Source: an uncultured Oscillospiraceae bacterium
Lineage (GTDB): Bacteria; Bacillota; Clostridia; Oscillospirales; Oscillospiraceae
NCBI GenBank assembly: GCA_947631845.1
Contig: CANRMY010000013.1
Span: forward strand, 1 to 49,308
Direction: 5' to 3'
Length of the DNA stretch: 49,308 nt
A model generated the notes under the pieces. That model made no database searches. It worked only from the letters and a program-made list of their open reading frames with translations, and had not been told where the DNA came from. The position numbers and the translations under genes are program-made. The first letter of the stretch is position 1; every line of letters starts with the position of its first letter. This document shows, piece after piece, positions 2,123 through 19,885 of this stretch.

Positions 2123-4471
2123 TTAAATCTGCTCCATGACGAAGCACTCGATGACGTCGCCCACCTTGACGTCGTTGAATTTTTCCACCTGCATACCGCA
2201 CTCGTAGCCGGAGGCCACCTCGCGCACGTCGTCCTTGAAGCGCCGGAGAGACGCCAGCTCCCCGTCGAAGATGATGACGTTGTCGCGGATGACGCGCACC
2301 TTGCAGCCGCGCTGGATCTTGCCGTCCAGCACATAACAGCCGCAGACGGTGCCCACCTTGGAGACCTTGTAGGTCTCCCGCACCTCGGCGTGGCCCAGCT
2401 GGACCTCCCGGAATTTCGGGGCCAGCATACCCTTCATGGCGGACTCGATCTCGCCGATGCAGTCGTAAATGATGTTGTAAAGCCGGATGTCCACATGGCT
2501 TCTGGCGGCGGACTCCCGGGCGGCGTTGTCCGGGCGGACGTTGAAGCCCACCACGATGGCCCCGGAGGTGGCGGCCAGCATCACGTCGGATTCGGAGATG
2601 GCGCCCACGGCGGAGTGGATCACGCGGACCCGGACCTCCTCGTTGGTCAGCTTCTCCAAACTGGCCTTGATGGCCTCGGCGGAGCCCTGGACGTCGGCCT
2701 TGACGATGATGGGCAGCTCCTTCAGCTCGCCCTCCTTGATCTGGGCGAAAAGATCCTCCAGGGAGACCTTCCGTGCGCCGGTGTCGGGGGCGTTGCGGTT
2801 TTGCTTGCGCTCCTCGGCCAGCTCGCGGGCCATGCGCTCGTCCGCCACGGCGTTGAAGATGTCGCCGGCGTCGGGCACCTCGTTCATGCCCGCGATCTCC
2901 ACGGGGACGGAGGGGCCGGCCTCGGTGACGCGCTCGCCCTTGTCGTTCATCATGGTGCGCACGCGGCCCACCGCCGTGCCGGCGATGATGATGTCGCCCT
3001 GCTTCAAGGTGCCGTTCTGCACCAGGACGGTCATGATGGGGCCGCGGCCCTTGTCCAGGCGGGCCTCGATGACCACGCCGCGCGCCGCGCGGTTGGGGTT
3101 GGCCTTCAGCTCCTGGACCTCGGCCAGAACCACCAGATTTTCCAAAAGCTCTTGGACGCCCTCGCCGGTCTTGGCGGAGATGGGGCACACGATGGTGTCG
3201 CCGCCCCACTCCTCGGGGACGATGTCGTACTCGGTGAGCTGCTGCTTGATGCGCTCGGGATTGGCGCCGTGGACGTCCATCTTGTTGATGGCCACCACGA
3301 TGGGGATCTTGGCCGCCTTGGCGTGGTTGATGGATTCGATGGTCTGGGGCATGATGCCGTCGTCGGCGGCTACCACTAAGATGGCGATATCCGTGGCCAT
3401 AGCGCCGCGGGCGCGCATGGAGGTGAACGCCTCGTGGCCCGGGGTGTCCAGGAAGGTGATGGGACTGCCGTTGACCATGACCCGGTAGGCGCCGATGTGC
3501 TGGGTGATGCCGCCGGCCTCGCCGGAGGCCACGTTGGAGGACCGGATCTTGTCCAAAAGGGAGGTTTTGCCGTGGTCCACGTGGCCCATGACCACCACCA
3601 CGGGGGCGCGGGGCTGAAGCTCCTCGGCGGTATCCTGCCGGTCATCGATGAGGCGCTCCTCGATGGTGACCACCACCTCGCGCTCCACCTTACAGCCCAG
3701 CTCCATGGCCACCAGGGCGGCGGTGTCGTAGTCGATGGTGTCGCTCACCGAGGCCATGACGCCCATTTTGATGAGGGATCTCACCACCTCGGCGCCGGTC
3801 TTCTTCATGCGGGAGGCCAGCTCGCCTACGCTGATCTCGTCGGGGATCTGCACCTTCACGGGGGCCTTCTTGGCCACCTCGAACTGGAGACGTCTTAACC
3901 TGTCGCGCTCCTCCTGGCGGCGCTTGGCGGATTTATCCTGGGCGGGATTCGTCCTCTGCTGGCCGCCCTTTTTCTTGATCTGCTCCTTGCCGCGCTTCAT
4001 ATTCTGGGCGCGCTCTCCGGCCATCTGGTCGAAGCGCTCGTCGTATTTTTCGATGTTGATGGTGACGCCGGAGGTGTCGATGACACGCTTCTGCTTCTCC
4101 GGCCGGGGGGTGAACTGCTTCTCCGGCTTGGGCTTGGCCTGGCCGGCGCTCTGGGACTGGGGCGCGGCGGGCTTGGCCGGGGTCTTGCCCGCCTGAGCCT
4201 CCGGGGCCGCGGGCGCGGAGGAGGCCGTACCGGCGGCCGGCTCCGCCTTGGGAGCGGCGGGCTTCACGTCGGTGAACACCTCCGCGATGGATTCCATCTG
4301 GTGATGCTGGGTCAGATACTCAAAAATGTAGTCAAGCTCCTGATTTTCAAGCACCTGCATATGATTTTTGGGCGTAGTGGCATACTTCGTCAGTATCTCC
4401 GTAACGACCTTCGTGGCGACTTTAAAATCCTTCGCCACCTCATGTACCCTGTATTTTACTACAACTGCCAT
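2123..4471 (-). CDS. infB: Translation initiation factor IF-2
   Basis: A 782-residue GTPase that recruits fMet-tRNA to the 30S subunit and promotes subunit joining. An IF2_N domain occupies residues 1-50. An Ala/Pro/Lys-rich linker follows to about 200, then a second IF2_N-like segment. The G domain begins near 285 with the P-loop GHVDHGKT at 296-303, then the switch II DTPGHEA and NKMD motifs. Domains II, III and the C-terminal fMet-tRNA-binding domain complete the protein. Length is normal. The low-complexity linker is long, as is common in Clostridia. It lies downstream of the L7Ae-like gene in the nusA operon. Confidence 0.98.
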
Positions 4472-4536
4472 ACTTGAAAAATCATCCTTTCAAAATGCTT
4501 GAAATATCTGTATAGGAACTGCCTGGGGACGCGCGG

Positions 4537-4953
4537 TCATTTCTTTTTGCCGCGCCGGATATTGGCCTGATGGCGCCGGGCTTCCCGCTGCCGCTCCAGA
4601 GCCTTTTCGTTTTGCCGGTCTAAGGCCGCCTTGATGTCCGAGAACCCCGGATGCTCCGTGGAGAGCTTGTCGATGAAGGCGCTGGCGAAGGAGATATCGG
4701 TAACGGCGGCGGCGCTGACGGGGCCCTTGCCCAGGGCCGCGCCCAGGGCTTCTTTGGGATAGGGGAGGGCGGCCACGGGGCAGTGGGCGGCGGCGGAGGC
4801 GTTTTGCGCCCGGGTCAGGGCGTTTTCGCCGGCGTCCGAGGCCGTCAGAATGACCTTGGCCTTTCCGGCGCGGGCGGCCATGGCGATGTATTCCTCGCCC
4901 ACCTCCACCCGGCCGGCTCTCATCGCCAGACCCAGAAAGCTGAGGGCGCTCAT
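4537..4953 (-). CDS. L7Ae/L30e-family ribosomal protein (YlxQ-like)
   Basis: A 138-residue protein with an L7Ae/L30e RNA-binding fold. It opens with LSFLGLAMRAGRVEVGEE, the pattern of YlxQ proteins, and has a C-terminal basic tail (RRHQANIRRGKKK) likely to contact RNA. Members bind kink-turn RNA. Its ATG overlaps the ylxR stop as ATGA, so translation is coupled. It sits between ylxR and infB, the standard Firmicutes position. The basic tail makes it longer than the roughly 100-residue family norm. Confidence 0.9.
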   Translation of the reverse strand: MSALSFLGLAMRAGRVEVGEEYIAMAARAGKAKVILTASDAGENALTRAQNASAAAHCPVAALPYPKEALGAALGKGPVSAAAVTDISFASAFIDKLSTEHPGFSDIKAALDRQNEKALERQREARRHQANIRRGKKK

Positions 4954-5219
4954 TCCTCCGCCTCCAGCTGGGCCTTCAGCGTGTCAAAGATGCTTTCGGG
5001 GATCTCCGTGCCCAACGCTCTGCCCAGGGCGCGGGATTTGATGGCCTTTTTCAGGCACGCGGGATCCGGGCAGATATACGCGCCACGGCCCGGTTTTTTG
5101 CCGCGGGCGTCGATGGAAACCTCCCCCTCCGGGGAGCGGACCACCCGTGTCAGCTCGCGCTTGGGCCTCTGGGCGCGGCACCCCACGCACTGGCGCAGGG
5201 GGATCTTTTTCTCGGGCAA
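4950..5219 (-). CDS. ylxR: YlxR (DUF448) RNA-binding protein
   Basis: A small protein with the DUF448 signature: IPLRQCVGCRAQRPKREL near the N terminus, then RGKKPGRGAYICPDPACL and a Lys/Arg-rich helix. I chose the TTG at 5217-5219 because AAAGGA lies 9 bases upstream and homologues begin just before IPxRxCVGC. An in-frame GTG at 5255 would add 12 residues (89 to 101) but has a poorly placed ribosome-binding site. YlxR homologues in Bacillus and Clostridium bind RNase P RNA or act as nucleoid/transcription regulators. The gene is in its usual position between nusA and the L7Ae-like gene. Confidence 0.9.
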   Translation of the reverse strand: MPEKKIPLRQCVGCRAQRPKRELTRVVRSPEGEVSIDARGKKPGRGAYICPDPACLKKAIKSRALGRALGTEIPESIFDTLKAQLEAEE

Positions 5220-5269
5220 AGCGATCAATCCTTTCGGCGGCAAATGGCCGGACACAGCTCCGGGGCGGG

Positions 5270-6343
5270 TCAGCCCTCAAAGCTTTCGGGCTTGATGTCG
5301 ATCTTGAAGCCGGTGAGCCGGGCGGCCAGACGGACGTTCTGCCCCTCCTTGCCGATGGCCAGGGAGAGCTGATTGTCCGGGACGATGACCCGGCAGACCT
5401 TGGAGTCGTCTAAAAATTCCACCTTGGTGACGGAGGAGGGGGAGAGGGCCGCCGCCACGTATTCGCAGGGGTCCTCGGAGTATTTGATGATGTCGATCTT
5501 CTCGTCGCGCAGCTCCTTGACCACGGCGCCCACGCGGCCGCCGCGGGGGCCCACGCAGGAGCCGATGGGCTCCACCTCGGGGTCGGAGGACCAGACGGCG
5601 ATCTTGGTGCGGCTGCCCGGCTCGCGGGCGATGGACTTGATCTCCACGGTGCCGTCCATGATCTCGGGGACCTCCAGCTCAAACAGGCGCTTGACAAGGC
5701 CCGGATGGGTGCGGGAGACGCGCACCTGGGGGCCGGCCCCCAGCTTGCGCACGTCGATGACGTAAACCTTGAGCATGTCGCCCTCCCGCAGCTCCTCGCC
5801 GGGTACGCGCTCGTCGGCGGGCATGACAGCTTCGGTGTATTCACTGCCGGCACCCAGATTCAGGGTGACGGAGCCCCGGGCCGGGTCGATGCGGCTGACG
5901 GTGCCGGTCAGGATCTCGTGGCCCTTGGTGGAGAACTCCTGATAGACCTGATTGCGCTCGGCCTCGCGGATGCCCTGGATGATCACCTGCTTGGCGGCCT
6001 GGGCGGCGATGCGGCCGAATTTCTTGGTGTCCACAGGCACGTTCACCGTGTCGCCGGCGGCGGCATGCTTGTTGTAGCGCTGGGCCTCCTCGGGGAGCAG
6101 CTGGATGTCGGGATCCTCCACCTCCTCCACCACGTCCTTGCGGACGTACATGGCGATGCGCTTTTTGGCCTCGTCCACCTCCACCACCATGCGGTCCTCG
6201 GCGGCGGGGCTGTCCTTGCGGAGAGCCGCCAAAAGGGCCTGGCGGATCTTCTCGAACATATCCTCCCGGGGGATGCCCTTCTCCTTCTCGATGTCGGCGA
6301 TGGCGTCAAAAAACTCTGCGTTGACTGCGTTCGGTGCGTTCAT
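5270..6343 (-). CDS. nusA: Transcription termination/antitermination factor NusA
   Basis: A 357-residue transcription elongation factor that binds RNA polymerase and nascent RNA and stimulates pausing and intrinsic termination. An N-terminal polymerase-binding domain (1-125) is followed by an S1 domain (from about 135, ILTGTVSRIDPARG) and two KH domains (IGSCVGPRGGRVGAVV near 235; LAIGKEGQNVRLAARLTG near 335). It lacks the C-terminal acidic repeats of proteobacterial NusA, as is typical of Firmicutes. AAGGAG precedes the ATG. It follows rimP by 37 bases. Its operon leader contains an intrinsic terminator suited to NusA feedback. Confidence 0.98.
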   Translation of the reverse strand: MNAPNAVNAEFFDAIADIEKEKGIPREDMFEKIRQALLAALRKDSPAAEDRMVVEVDEAKKRIAMYVRKDVVEEVEDPDIQLLPEEAQRYNKHAAAGDTVNVPVDTKKFGRIAAQAAKQVIIQGIREAERNQVYQEFSTKGHEILTGTVSRIDPARGSVTLNLGAGSEYTEAVMPADERVPGEELREGDMLKVYVIDVRKLGAGPQVRVSRTHPGLVKRLFELEVPEIMDGTVEIKSIAREPGSRTKIAVWSSDPEVEPIGSCVGPRGGRVGAVVKELRDEKIDIIKYSEDPCEYVAAALSPSSVTKVEFLDDSKVCRVIVPDNQLSLAIGKEGQNVRLAARLTGFKIDIKPESFEG

Positions 6344-9499: not shown

Positions 9500-9536
9500 G
9501 GCCGGAGGCGAACCTCCGGCCATGTTTTATTTTTTT
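9500..9536. terminator. Bidirectional terminator between the MATE gene and porB
   Basis: ggccggagg and cctccggcc pair around cgaa, with T-rich sequence on the plus-strand 3' side (9524-9536) and A-rich sequence on the other. It serves two convergent transcripts. Confidence 0.85.
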
Positions 9537-9544
9537 CAGCGCGG

Positions 9545-10480
9545 TCAGGACTGGGAGCAGCGGTTGAGAAGCTCGGCCCATTTGCGGTCTACGTAGTCCT
9601 GGGCGGCCTCGATGGTCCACTCGTTGCCGGGCTTGAAGCAGTGCTTGAAGCGGCCCTGGAGGCGCATGAACTCCTCCACGGGGAGCTTCTTTTTGGGCTC
9701 GTAGCTGAGGATCCACTTGCCCTCCACCACCTCGTAGAGGGGCCAGACACAGGTCTCCACGGCCATCTTGCAGATCTGGGGCAGGAGCTCGGCGGAGTAC
9801 TGCCAGCCGCGAGGGCAGGGGGCCATCACGTTGACAAAGGCGGGGCCGGGGGTGTAGATGGCCCGGTGGGCCTTCTCGTGGAAGTCCTTGAAGTTGCCGA
9901 TGAAGGTGGTCTGGGCCACGTAGGGGATGTTGTGGGCGGCCATGATCACGGTCAGATCCTTCTTCTCCTGCTTCTTGCCCAGGGACTCGGTGCCCACGGG
10001 GGTGGTAGTGGCGTTGGCGAAGCGGGGGGTGGAGCTGGAGCGCTGGATGCCGGTATTCATGTACGCCTCGTTGTCGTAGCAGAAGTACACCATGTCGTGG
10101 CCCCGCTCCATGGCGCCGGACAGGGACTGGAAACCGATATCGTAGGTGCCGCCGTCGCCGCCGATGGTGATGAATTTGTATGCCTCGTTAAGCTTGCCCT
10201 TCTTGTGCAGGGCCTTGCAGGCGGCCTCCACGCCGCCGCAGACGGCGGAGGCGTTTTCAAAGGCGGAGTGGATGTAGCTGTCCTCCCAGGCGGTGTAGGG
10301 GTAGAGGAAGGAGCTGACCTCCAGGCACCCGGTGGCGTTGCAGATGACGGCCTTGTCCCCCTCGTTCAGGGCGCGGGTGATGCCGCGGCAGACGATGCCC
10401 GCGCCGCAGCCGGCGCACAGCCGGTGGCCGGGGGCGAACCGTTCGGGCTTGGAAAGCTCGACCTTATGATTGTAAGCCAT
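9545..10480 (-). CDS. porB: 2-oxoacid:ferredoxin oxidoreductase, beta (TPP-binding) subunit
   Basis: A 311-residue beta subunit of the pyruvate/2-ketoisovalerate ferredoxin oxidoreductase family. It holds thiamine diphosphate and cluster-ligating cysteines: HRLCAGCGAG near residue 20, and the TPP/Mg motif GDGGTYDIG near 108 with NEAYMNTG near 138. The enzyme interconverts a 2-oxo acid plus CoA with acyl-CoA, CO2 and reduced ferredoxin. It is the last gene of a four-gene operon with alpha, delta and gamma subunits. The upstream isoleucine-type T-box argues for a branched-chain substrate; sequence alone does not separate Por from Vor. Confidence 0.93.
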   Translation of the reverse strand: MAYNHKVELSKPERFAPGHRLCAGCGAGIVCRGITRALNEGDKAVICNATGCLEVSSFLYPYTAWEDSYIHSAFENASAVCGGVEAACKALHKKGKLNEAYKFITIGGDGGTYDIGFQSLSGAMERGHDMVYFCYDNEAYMNTGIQRSSSTPRFANATTTPVGTESLGKKQEKKDLTVIMAAHNIPYVAQTTFIGNFKDFHEKAHRAIYTPGPAFVNVMAPCPRGWQYSAELLPQICKMAVETCVWPLYEVVEGKWILSYEPKKKLPVEEFMRLQGRFKHCFKPGNEWTIEAAQDYVDRKWAELLNRCSQS

Positions 10481-10481
10481 C

Positions 10482-11681
10482 TCAAAGCACCTCCTCTTGA
10501 TTGCTGCGCTGGCCGAAGTGGATGTACCGGGGGCCGGTCTCGCCGGTCTCCACGATCTTCAGAAGATGCCGGTAGACCTTCTCAATGTCCTCCACCGCGC
10601 AGTCACGGCCGGCCAGACCGTAGACCACGTCGATCATCTTCGGGGGATTGGGCAGGTCGTAGCAGGCGGAGCGCGTTTCGGCGAACAGGGGGCCGCCGCA
10701 GCCGGAATAGCCCTCGCTCTTGTCCATGACGGCCACGGCCTTCACGTTTTTGAGGGCCTGGGCCAGCTCCTCCATGGGGAAGGGCCGGAACACACGGATC
10801 TTCACAAGGCCGGCCTTGACGCCCTGGGCCCTCAGCTTTTCGACGCAGGCCTTGGCGGTGCCGGCGGTGGAGCCGATGAGCACCAGGGCCACCTCCGCGT
10901 CCTCCATGCGGTACTCCTCAAAGAAGCCGTACTTACGGCCGAAGGTCCTTTCAAAATCGGCGGCCACGTCCAGGATCACCTTTTTGGCGTTCTTCATGGC
11001 CTCGGCCTGCATGACCTTGTGCTCCATGCAGAAGGGGCAGGAGTCGTAGGGCCCCACGGCCAGGGGGTGATCCCGGCCCACCAGGGCGTGCTCGGGGCGG
11101 TACTCGCCCACGAATTTTTTCACGTCCTCGTCGGACTCCAAAAGGATGTTTTCCACCGCGTGGGAGGTGATGAAGCCGTCCTGGCAGATCATGATGGGGA
11201 GCCGGACGGAGGGGTGCTCGGAGATGCGCATGGCCTGGAGGTAGTTATCATACGCCTCCTGGTTGTTCTCGGCGTAGATCTGGAGCCACCCGGCGTCCCG
11301 GGCGCCCATGGAGTCGGAGTGGTCGTTGTTGATGTTGATGGGGCCGGTCAGCGTCCGGTTGACGCAGGCCAGGGTGATGGGCAGGCGGCTGGAGGCGGCC
11401 ACGTAGAGGACCTCGTACATGAAGGCCAGCCCCGCGGAGGAGGTGGCTGTCACGGCCCGGGCGCCCGCCGCGGCGGCGCCGATGCAGGTGGACATGGAGG
11501 AGTGCTCGCTCTCCACGGTGACGTACTCGGTGCCCACCTTGCCGTCGGCCACGTACTGGGCGAAGTACTGGGGGATCTCGGTGGAGGGGGTGATGGGGAA
11601 GGCGGCAAACACGTCGGGGTCGATCTGCCGCATGGCGGTGGCGATGGCCTCGTTGCCGGAAAGACGTTCACGGATGCTCAT
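10482..11681 (-). CDS. porA: 2-oxoacid:ferredoxin oxidoreductase, alpha subunit
   Basis: A 399-residue alpha subunit. The N-terminal domain contacts TPP of the beta subunit (GNEAIATAMRQIDPDVFAAFPITPSTEI, ESEHSSMS). The C-terminal transketolase-like domain carries VLIGSTAGTAK near residue 265 and ends in RYIHFGQRSNQEE. AGGAGG lies upstream of the ATG; it overlaps the delta subunit gene by four bases (ATGA) and lies one base from porB. The subunit order gamma-delta-alpha-beta is normal for archaeal and anaerobic bacterial enzymes. Confidence 0.93.
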   Translation of the reverse strand: MSIRERLSGNEAIATAMRQIDPDVFAAFPITPSTEIPQYFAQYVADGKVGTEYVTVESEHSSMSTCIGAAAAGARAVTATSSAGLAFMYEVLYVAASSRLPITLACVNRTLTGPININNDHSDSMGARDAGWLQIYAENNQEAYDNYLQAMRISEHPSVRLPIMICQDGFITSHAVENILLESDEDVKKFVGEYRPEHALVGRDHPLAVGPYDSCPFCMEHKVMQAEAMKNAKKVILDVAADFERTFGRKYGFFEEYRMEDAEVALVLIGSTAGTAKACVEKLRAQGVKAGLVKIRVFRPFPMEELAQALKNVKAVAVMDKSEGYSGCGGPLFAETRSACYDLPNPPKMIDVVYGLAGRDCAVEDIEKVYRHLLKIVETGETGPRYIHFGQRSNQEEVL

Positions 11682-11989
11682 TGGTGTACCTCCTGTTCCA
11701 TGGTGATGGCCTGGAAGGGGCAGACCTTCCAGCAGATGCCGCAGCCCTTGCAGTGGTCATAGTCGAAATCCGTCCGCTTACCCGCCTTCACGGGGATGGA
11801 GGAGTCGGGGCAGAAGGGGGCGCAGAGAAGGCACTGGCGGCACTTTTGGGGATCCCACACGGGCCGGTTGGAGCGCCATTCGCCGGTTTTCGTAAGCCGC
11901 GAGGTGCCGCCCTCGTAGATCTCTCCGCCGGGGGTCATCTCCTGCCAGGGGGACTGTTCGTTGATGTTTTCGGCCTTTTGGAAACTCAT
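11678..11989 (-). CDS. porD: 2-oxoacid:ferredoxin oxidoreductase, delta (2[4Fe-4S]) subunit
   Basis: A 103-residue ferredoxin-like subunit that passes electrons from the TPP site to ferredoxin. Two cluster motifs are visible: CRQCLLCAPFCPD near residue 52 and HCKGCGICWKVCP near 80. GAAGGAGG precedes the ATG, and both ends overlap their neighbours by four bases, so all four subunits are translationally coupled. Confidence 0.95.
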   Translation of the reverse strand: MSFQKAENINEQSPWQEMTPGGEIYEGGTSRLTKTGEWRSNRPVWDPQKCRQCLLCAPFCPDSSIPVKAGKRTDFDYDHCKGCGICWKVCPFQAITMEQEVHQ

Positions 11990-12587: not shown

Positions 12588-12848
12588 AAAAAAGCGCCCG
12601 CCCCGTAAAGGGACGGACGCCATAAGTTGACACCGTTGTACCACCCGTTACTGCGTACACGACGATACGCGCCTCCTGTAACGGGGAGAACCGTCAGCGC
12701 CTACTCCAGATCTGTTTGGGGCTGAAACTCCGGAGTGATATTCGGACAGGCCCTCCGGCGCCGGATTTCCACCATCCACCGGCTCTCTGCGGCCTCGGGC
12801 AAGCCTACTGTCTCCATCATCGTCTTTGCTTCTTTAAATTGTGCTTCG
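12588..12848 (-). promoter_or_regulatory. T-box leader, probably isoleucine-specific
   Basis: On the minus strand the leader shows T-box landmarks in order. A Stem I distal region (AGAGAGCCGG, then TGGTGGAAATCCGG) spans about 12755-12787. The specifier region GAATATCACTCCGGAG is at 12728-12743, with codon ATC (Ile) at 12737-12739. The T-box core GGGTGGTAC is at 12638-12646. A competing terminator, gcgtccgtccc/ggggcgggcgc plus six U, spans 12588-12620. The bulge base after UGG is U, which pairs with discriminator A, as in tRNA-Ile. Uncharged tRNA-Ile should stabilise the antiterminator and switch the downstream oxidoreductase operon on. Overlapping readings (TAT, TCA) are possible, so the Ile call is inference from alignment to known specifier loops. 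Confidence 0.88.
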
Positions 12849-12849
12849 T

Positions 12850-12878
12850 ATTGTACCCCTCGCCGGCGGCGCTGTCAA
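12850..12878 (-). promoter_or_regulatory. Sigma-A promoter of the T-box/2-oxoacid oxidoreductase operon
   Basis: On the minus strand: TTGACA (12873-12878), exactly 17 bases, TACAAT (12850-12855). Transcription should begin near 12843, just before the first T-box stem. The -35 box overlaps the stop codon of a small zinc-ribbon ORF. Confidence 0.88.
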
Positions 12879-13028: not shown

Positions 13029-13925
13029 TTACGGTCTTCCGCAGATGATCCAGGGGGCGGGCTCGGCGTCGAAGGTGTTTTTGGAGGTGAGCTTGGAGAC
13101 GGAGATCTGCAGCGCCTCCACGTCCGACAGGCCGTATTGGCGCAGACGGTCGGGCAGGGAGGCGGCGCACCGGAAGTCCAGGGTGTAGACGACGAACTCC
13201 ATGGCGGGGTTGAGCTTCAAAAGGCACTCCATCTCCCGCTCCATGCTGGCGGAGGCAACCAGGAAGGTGAGCGCGGGTACCGGCAGGCCCTCCAGGGTCT
13301 TTTCGTCCACATGGTCGATGACGGTGATGTTGTTGAGGCCGAACTGGTGGGCGTTCTCCTCCACGGTGCGGCGGTCCCGCTGGCTGTACTCCACGGCGAT
13401 GACCGTGCCCTCCGGGGCCAGGATGGCCGTCTCCACGGCGATGGAGGCCCCGCCGATGACGCAGACCGTGTCGGCGCTGGAGACGTGCATCTTGTTCAGG
13501 ATCACCGCCCGGATCTCGCTGCCCACATAGTGGACGGAGCCCCGGAAGAAGTCGGAGTTGCGCATACCGATCTTGGTGGTGGAGCGGGCGTTGGGGTTCA
13601 GGATCAGCATCCCGGCGGAGGCGTTGATGCCCCGGTTGATCATATCCTTCACCTGGGAGTGGAGAATGGGCCCTGTGGGTTCTGAGCCCTCGTTATACCA
13701 GACGTCGCACTCCCCCAGGCCCGCGTCCCACATGCGGTAGAAGATGTCCGGGTGGCCCGCCTCGGTGAACACCAGCACGGCGGGGCGGGATTCCACCGTG
13801 GGGATCAGGTTCTTGTTCTTGCGGGTGATGTCCAGGATCTTGACCTTCTCCAGATCCACCTGCATGTTTTCGGCGAAATAGGTGAGCCAGGCCAGAATGT
13901 GGGCGTTGGTGAACATGTTTTCCAT
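13029..13925 (-). CDS. CbiE/CbiT-like SAM-dependent methyltransferase
   Basis: A 298-residue protein whose C-terminal half matches the CbiT (cobalt-precorrin methyltransferase) pattern: FFRGSVHYVGSEIRAVILNKM leads into the SAM-binding VCVIGGASIAVETAILAPEG near residue 165, with AVEYS as the acidic ribose-binding end of strand 2. The N-terminal half resembles a degenerate CbiE. No other cobalamin-pathway gene is in the window, so its real substrate is uncertain. The ATG at 13925 has GGAGGG 6 bases upstream; the upstream ORF extension to 14030 lacks one. Confidence 0.7.
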   Translation of the reverse strand: MENMFTNAHILAWLTYFAENMQVDLEKVKILDITRKNKNLIPTVESRPAVLVFTEAGHPDIFYRMWDAGLGECDVWYNEGSEPTGPILHSQVKDMINRGINASAGMLILNPNARSTTKIGMRNSDFFRGSVHYVGSEIRAVILNKMHVSSADTVCVIGGASIAVETAILAPEGTVIAVEYSQRDRRTVEENAHQFGLNNITVIDHVDEKTLEGLPVPALTFLVASASMEREMECLLKLNPAMEFVVYTLDFRCAASLPDRLRQYGLSDVEALQISVSKLTSKNTFDAEPAPWIICGRP

Positions 13926-19782: not shown

Positions 19783-19885
19783 TGCAGAGTAGGCCGGCGC
19801 GCGTCAAGTGCTTCGGGGACGGAGAGTTGCCCCGGGGACGAAGAAAGCAGCGCTTTCGCGGTGCGCCTGCCGCATCCCGCTGCGA
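19783..19885 (+). promoter_or_regulatory. Tetrahydrofolate (THF) riboswitch
   Basis: The conserved elements of the folT-type THF riboswitch occur in order: P1 5' strand gcag then AGTAGG (19784-19793), GCGTCAAGTG (19801-19810), GGACGAA (19836-19842), CGCGGTGCGCC (19857-19867), GCATCCCG and the P1 3' strand ctgc (19872-19883). gcag/ctgc closes P1 and ggcgc/gcgcc closes P2. It sits between the promoter and an S-component gene. Folate binding likely lowers expression by hiding the ribosome-binding site or by termination. Confidence 0.85.

Follow-up and report, generated by a model that had tools for sequence, protein, structure and literature searches.

T-box leaders switch genes on when the tRNA is uncharged, and a UGGNACC bulge is their hallmark. 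With transcriptional T-boxes of the isoleucine type (Rfam RF00230), the locus described here shares a promoter, a stem I with a specifier, a UGGU bulge, a competing terminator and, as predicted, an amino-acid gene downstream, and it differs from them in that the regulated gene encodes a ferredoxin oxidoreductase. The PorGDAB pyruvate synthase (entry 9bt4) has the same subunits in the same order, the same carboxylate-binding Thr and Arg and the same pocket Asn, whereas the operon here appears to be under isoleucine control and falls below the PorA/PorB equivalog cut-offs. The 2-ketoisovalerate ferredoxin oxidoreductase has the superfamily and the subunit plan in common with this enzyme, but alpha and beta score lower here with its profiles and the specifier is for Ile only. 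Since 1969, several anaerobes have been proposed to have a 2-oxobutanoate (2-ketobutyrate):ferredoxin oxidoreductase, which would likewise make the isoleucine precursor from propionyl-CoA; an excerpt of the source states that pyruvate formate-lyase may account for some such cases and that the enzyme is disputed (PMC7476758). In that excerpt it is an activity without an assigned gene (PMC7476758), whereas porGDAB here is a set of genes with a predicted activity.

The window, meaning the whole stretch of DNA that was analysed, comprises 49,308 nucleotides of contig CANRMY010000013.1 from an uncultured Oscillospiraceae bacterium. All of the promoter, leader, terminator and operon features lie on its minus strand, the first three within the coordinates that an earlier note on this DNA had given. 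A promoter-like site, TTGACA-17-TACAAT (12850..12878; TTGACA at 12878-12873, TACAAT at 12855-12850), has 11 of 12 consensus matches, and 0.6 sites of this type would be expected by chance in the 3.8 kb scanned; the promoter is strong, although "perfect", as it had been called, is slightly overstated. It is followed by a full-length T-box leader (12606..12829), which was matched over the whole RF00230 covariance model (1-219 of 219) with 90.0 bits and an E value of 3e-20. This score is 3 bits below the Rfam gathering score of 93 for RF00230, which is why the T-box is absent from a default Rfam scan of the window. In an RF00230 search of the whole genome, eight T-boxes were found at E <= 0.001, among which the porGDAB leader ranked fourth. 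The specifier codon AUC (Ile; ATC in the DNA) is located at 12737..12739, and the bulge, read from the sequence as UGGUACA (TGGTACA; 12637..12643), departs from UGGNACC. An intrinsic terminator (12593..12621; 12 pairs and then a T run), with a folding energy of -23.9 kcal/mol that none of 200 shuffles equalled, is predicted to compete with the antiterminator. Then follow in order the genes for the gamma (P0001, 11986..12567), delta (P0002, ferredoxin type, 11678..11989), alpha (P0003, 10482..11681) and beta subunits (P0004, TPP-binding, 9545..10480) of a four-subunit oxidoreductase operon (12567-9545), which a terminator-like hairpin closes (9500..9521; 9 pairs and a T run). The full leader, the competing terminator and the four-subunit operon of the earlier note were thus all recovered.

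Elsewhere in the window, the upstream neighbour of the T-box (13032-13925, minus strand) had no Pfam match at 1e-5 and looked methyltransferase-like by eye; a THF riboswitch was found at 19783-19884 (plus strand, 88.3 bits), followed by a 185-residue frame with no Pfam match; and the NusA and IF-2 genes lie close together (2126-6343, minus strand).

The specifier was taken as the base triplet standing nine nucleotides ahead of the point where the closing GAG ends (GAAG in a single leader). In that register, the eight T-boxes of the genome read GUC, CUC, UGG, UUC, ACC, UGC, UAC and, at porGDAB, AUC. For six of the remaining T-boxes, NCBIfam identified the downstream genes as valS, leuA, pheS, thrS, a serine O-acetyltransferase gene (cysteine synthesis) and tyrS, and codon and gene agreed in these six of the seven (Val, Leu, Phe, Thr, Cys and Tyr). 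These codon-matched T-boxes fix the register, and the porGDAB specifier is therefore AUC, isoleucine. The seventh is a Trp-type T-box (UGG with a UGGC bulge; L003, 869-1110, minus strand, contig C102), for which no fitting gene was present on the short contig; a transposase-like frame was seen by eye on the opposite strand downstream of it.

AUC was found in 35/35 leaders before the porGDAB operon, 11 from the genus and 24 from named genomes among the best 80 relatives, while the base 5' of it varied (T in 14, A in 12, G in 5 and C in 4); the base 3' of it was A in 34 of them. Three named loci (L085, L086 and L087) have an alpha subunit identical to that of a genus locus, so the 35 leaders represent about 32 distinct entries. 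Both the T-box register and the variation at the base preceding AUC ruled out a Tyr reading of the specifier as UAU. The ATC (Ile) specifier proposed earlier was therefore borne out, and a check for another codon in the specifier position left AUC in place, by register and comparison alike, making a chance or misread codon very unlikely.

Among the named-genome leaders from the best 80 relatives, the UGGU of the bulge was present in 24/24 and the ACC of UGGNACC was kept in 1/24, with forms such as UGGUACA, UGGUAUA and the like, and the UGGNACC bulge was intact in all seven other T-boxes of the source genome. The UGGU had been said to fit tRNA-Ile; it is indeed present, but it says little for isoleucine in particular, being common to the valS, leuA, pheS and tyrS T-boxes of the same genome. 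No tRNA-Ile gene was seen among the 30 of 40 tRNA loci that were scanned.

Of the 33 congeners of the source genome, 10 share the operon with it, and the T-box leader was present in all of these carriers (11/11). Contigs of GTDB genomes were then scanned with an alpha alignment, and the best 80 relatives were taken as named loci. With a stem I model (R1), a T-box was found at 24 of these 80 loci, from Oscillospiraceae to Syntrophomonadaceae; the training set of R1 included leaders that the model went on to detect, though not L085, L091, L114 and L146. The 24 T-boxes end 1.04 to 1.24 kb before alpha, just upstream of gamma, with a terminator behind every one of them (24/24, counted without a shuffled control). 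A further match at L092 (16 bits) was located elsewhere and was left out of the count as spurious. The pairs of stem I covary: both partners were altered in seven of them, compared with 2.0 in shuffled controls, and 0/500 shuffles were as high; these counts, made on 25 rows including the spurious L092 match, lean to the structure of the model. By record title, the carriers include Butyricicoccus pullicaecorum, Agathobaculum desmolans, uncultured Oscillospiraceae and Lachnospiraceae, a Syntrophomonas, a Gelria, Syntrophomonadaceae and Desulfoscipio geothermicus. By a regular expression and then model R1, no T-box was found in any of 29 class-level relatives whose alpha is 62-68% identical, these being the new loci returned out of the 78 genomes, among 391, that gave a match.

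In a tree of 113 alpha subunits, 33 of the 34 rows with a T-box fell in one clade of 48, and one (L146, on a long branch) fell among the other 65; the T-box label required 6 changes on this tree, against a shuffle mean of 29. The tree was a quick one made without bootstrap, in which the 48-row clade had an SH-aLRT of 92, and seven of the 40 genus and class loci (L015, L061, L070, L071, L077, L079 and L084) were left out for short flanks. No T-box was detected by model R1 in 15 of the 48 clade members, of which L094 and L105 were also scanned with Rfam; some of the absences by R1 may be diverged T-boxes. Ten of the 15 belong to one Lachnospiraceae and Eubacterium group (L094, L097, L098, L101, L103, L105, L106, L107, L113 and L115), mostly named as rumen or gut assemblies; at L094, a short leader stands directly after an unrelated gene. 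The leader, codon, terminator, operon and their conservation are established by sequence and comparison, and the central claim that an Ile-type T-box controls the operon is well supported by this conservation together with the invariant AUC.

For the metabolic setting, the source genome holds leuA, ilvB, ilvN, ilvC, ilvD, leuC, leuB and ilvA behind the Leu T-box, with ilvC split over two contig ends. Since the canonical route from ilvA to ilvD is present, the enzyme would add to the route and not replace it, and replacement of a missing isoleucine pathway was rejected for this genome (ilvA, ilvB, ilvN, ilvC and ilvD present). Between leuB and ilvA lies the frame of a protein of about 400 residues (L049, 6122-7324; L053, 15545-16741), for which there was no NCBIfam match at the thresholds used. 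At ileS (L165, contig C20), neither Rfam, taken up to E 1, nor model R1 found a T-box, and the porGDAB leader is therefore the sole isoleucine T-box found in the genome; an excerpt of a T-box survey reports an ileS T-box in all of the T-box bacteria it covered (PMC2494555).

Within the genus, ilvA was above its cut-off in 11/11 carriers of the operon and in 15/23 non-carriers, so that operon presence does not follow ilvA loss; citramalate synthase (cimA) passed its cut-off in 0/34 genus genomes, with three matches of 188-226 bits. Of the 24 named T-box genomes from the best 80 relatives, 21 were surveyed, three near-identical to genus members being left out; ilvA was found in 13, cimA in 6 others (above cut-off) and neither in 2, both of which have ilvC, and ilvC was present in 17/21. 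Many of these genomes are incomplete assemblies, which makes gene absences weak.

We infer antitermination by tRNA-Ile, the direction of the reaction and the substrate as follows. Transcription would start at the promoter and, with charged tRNA-Ile, stop at the terminator. Uncharged tRNA-Ile would pair with the AUC specifier and, via its acceptor end, with UGGU; the antiterminator would then form and porGDAB would be made. The enzyme would run reductively and supply an isoleucine precursor, the most likely reaction being conversion of propionyl-CoA and CO2 to 2-oxobutanoate, from which IlvBN, IlvC, IlvD and a transaminase would make isoleucine, sparing threonine. This model as a whole, built on sequence comparison, is given a probability of roughly 45%. 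Consuming 2-oxobutanoate or 3-methyl-2-oxopentanoate would deepen an isoleucine shortage, so the synthetic direction is the sensible reading; the reductive, synthetic role, which the earlier note had derived from induction on isoleucine shortage, can soundly be inferred from the conserved Ile T-box. Several observations count against the model, namely the 15 of 48 clade rows in which no T-box was detected, the operon not tracking ilvA, and a gene neighbourhood in which, apart from the four subunits, no recurrent family points to a substrate (grouped on ORFs of both strands, where antisense frames inflate some groups). Furthermore, ilvA or cimA in 19/21 named T-box genomes provides another source of 2-oxobutanoate there, which also counts against it, as does the shortfall of the subunits against every substrate-specific NCBIfam cut-off. 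The two genomes of the 21 with ilvC but neither ilvA nor cimA above cut-off speak in its favour.

Concerning the substrate, the gamma (TIGR02175, 201.7 bits, cut-off 81.1) and delta subunits (TIGR02179, 101.2 bits, cut-off 60.05) exceeded the cut-offs of the pyruvate/2-ketoisovalerate families. The alpha subunit, with POR_N and PFOR_II domains, reached 474.5 bits with NF040682 PorA_Arch (cut-off 550), and the beta subunit 357.1 bits with NF008819 PorB (cut-off 405); with the 2-ketoisovalerate models they reached 331.2 (cut-off 646) and 285.9 bits (cut-off 405), respectively. For both, the pyruvate synthase scores were thus the higher, and none of the substrate-specific NCBIfam cut-offs was reached by the porGDAB subunits. 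The nearest solved sequence is that of a pyruvate:ferredoxin oxidoreductase (9bt4). In the pyruvate-specific enzyme of D. africanus, an excerpt of the structural source places Thr31 and Arg114 at the carboxylate and Leu121, Ala219, Ile843, Asn996 and Met1202 around the methyl group of pyruvate (PMC5020499). Counted along the alignments, these pocket residues align to T31, R109, I115 and Y212 of alpha and V55 and N142 of beta, with no counterpart of Met1202 found. T31 and R109 were invariant in 113 alphas; I115 and Y212 did not vary among the clade's 33 T-box rows, the 65 outside rows having I or L and L or Y; and V55 and N142 were the sole letters in 78 betas recovered from the best 80 relatives. 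The aligned residues speak for a small substrate, with acetyl- and propionyl-CoA not separated and larger ones possible.

The earlier note had named 2-methylbutyryl-CoA as the substrate, the product being 3-methyl-2-oxopentanoate. On this reading, the product would lie one transamination from isoleucine, and 2-methylbutyrate from other microbes would be salvaged. The reading draws on the same Ile sensor and its conservation, the bypass of ilvBCD would make the reaction worthwhile even where the canonical route is complete, and the enzyme family does include pyruvate/2-ketoisovalerate enzymes; yet the 2-ketoisovalerate scores of alpha and beta are the lower ones, and one would expect an enzyme for branched-chain substrates to act for valine and leucine as well, whereas the specifier is Ile in all 35 leaders. 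Nothing tested prefers 2-methylbutyryl-CoA to propionyl-CoA and the alpha and beta scores are nearer to pyruvate synthases, so this assignment was not sustained; it is doubtful, while being the best placed of the alternatives. 2-Oxobutanoate is the precursor peculiar to isoleucine and the enzyme is pyruvate-synthase-like, and propionyl-CoA therefore fits best; propionate is plentiful in the gut. Conversion of propionyl-CoA to 2-oxobutanoate is accordingly favoured over use of 2-methylbutyryl-CoA.

Next in probability, and unlikely, is a pyruvate synthase or broad-range enzyme, whose isoleucine control would reflect a heavy draw on pyruvate or tRNA-Ile serving as a general starvation signal. 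The nearest profiles and the nearest solved structure are those of pyruvate enzymes, and in six of the 21 named T-box genomes (G454, G456, G458, G461, G462 and G464) no nifJ-length frame was found, five of these six having cimA, whose route starts from pyruvate. Against it, such a frame was present in 14 of the 21 (a fragment in one more), and the source genome has two POR_N genes, the porGDAB alpha and a nifJ-type gene truncated where its contig ends (about 1,180 residues in relatives), so that pyruvate oxidation in these genomes does not need porGDAB; isoleucine-specific control also fits poorly with a product that many pathways use. A pyruvate synthase role is possible mostly for the syntrophs.

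A degenerate leader, or a specifier other than AUC, would leave the operon outside isoleucine control. This reading would agree with a score just under the gathering score and with the departure of the bulge from UGGNACC, but it is very improbable given that the fixed spacing yields the right codon before valS, leuA, pheS, thrS, the cysE-type gene and tyrS, that AUC stays invariant beside a varying 5' neighbour, and that terminators and stem pairing persist in relatives.

The regulation is that of a transcriptional T-box with an unusual bulge, and the enzyme is a member of a known family. The pairing of a T-box with porGDAB, its spread and a direction derived from the sensor were not found in the literature searched, and an earlier listing is possible in T-box surveys, supplements or T-box databases; the words "ferredoxin" and "oxidoreductase" are absent from the main texts of PMC2494555 and PMC3766115.

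Annotation would file this operon as a pyruvate oxidoreductase of energy metabolism, whereas the Ile sensor points to amino-acid synthesis by an enzyme probably running backwards, that is, fixing CO2 with reduced ferredoxin. The sensor sets the clade apart from T-box-less relatives that are only 62-68% identical in alpha. On these comparisons, the chances are about even that the T-box clade represents a dedicated isoleucine-making ferredoxin oxidoreductase across much of Clostridia, fixing CO2 onto propionyl-CoA (or 2-methylbutyryl-CoA), in which the tRNA sensor would identify the genes behind an activity that anaerobes have been reported to show for half a century, and the absence of ACC common to these leaders would mark a T-box sub-lineage travelling with the enzyme. 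If this is true, gut and rumen Clostridia as well as syntrophs would have to be modelled differently, the supply of isoleucine would be linked to cross-fed short-chain acids, and there would be testable candidate genes for the disputed reductive carboxylation of propionyl-CoA.
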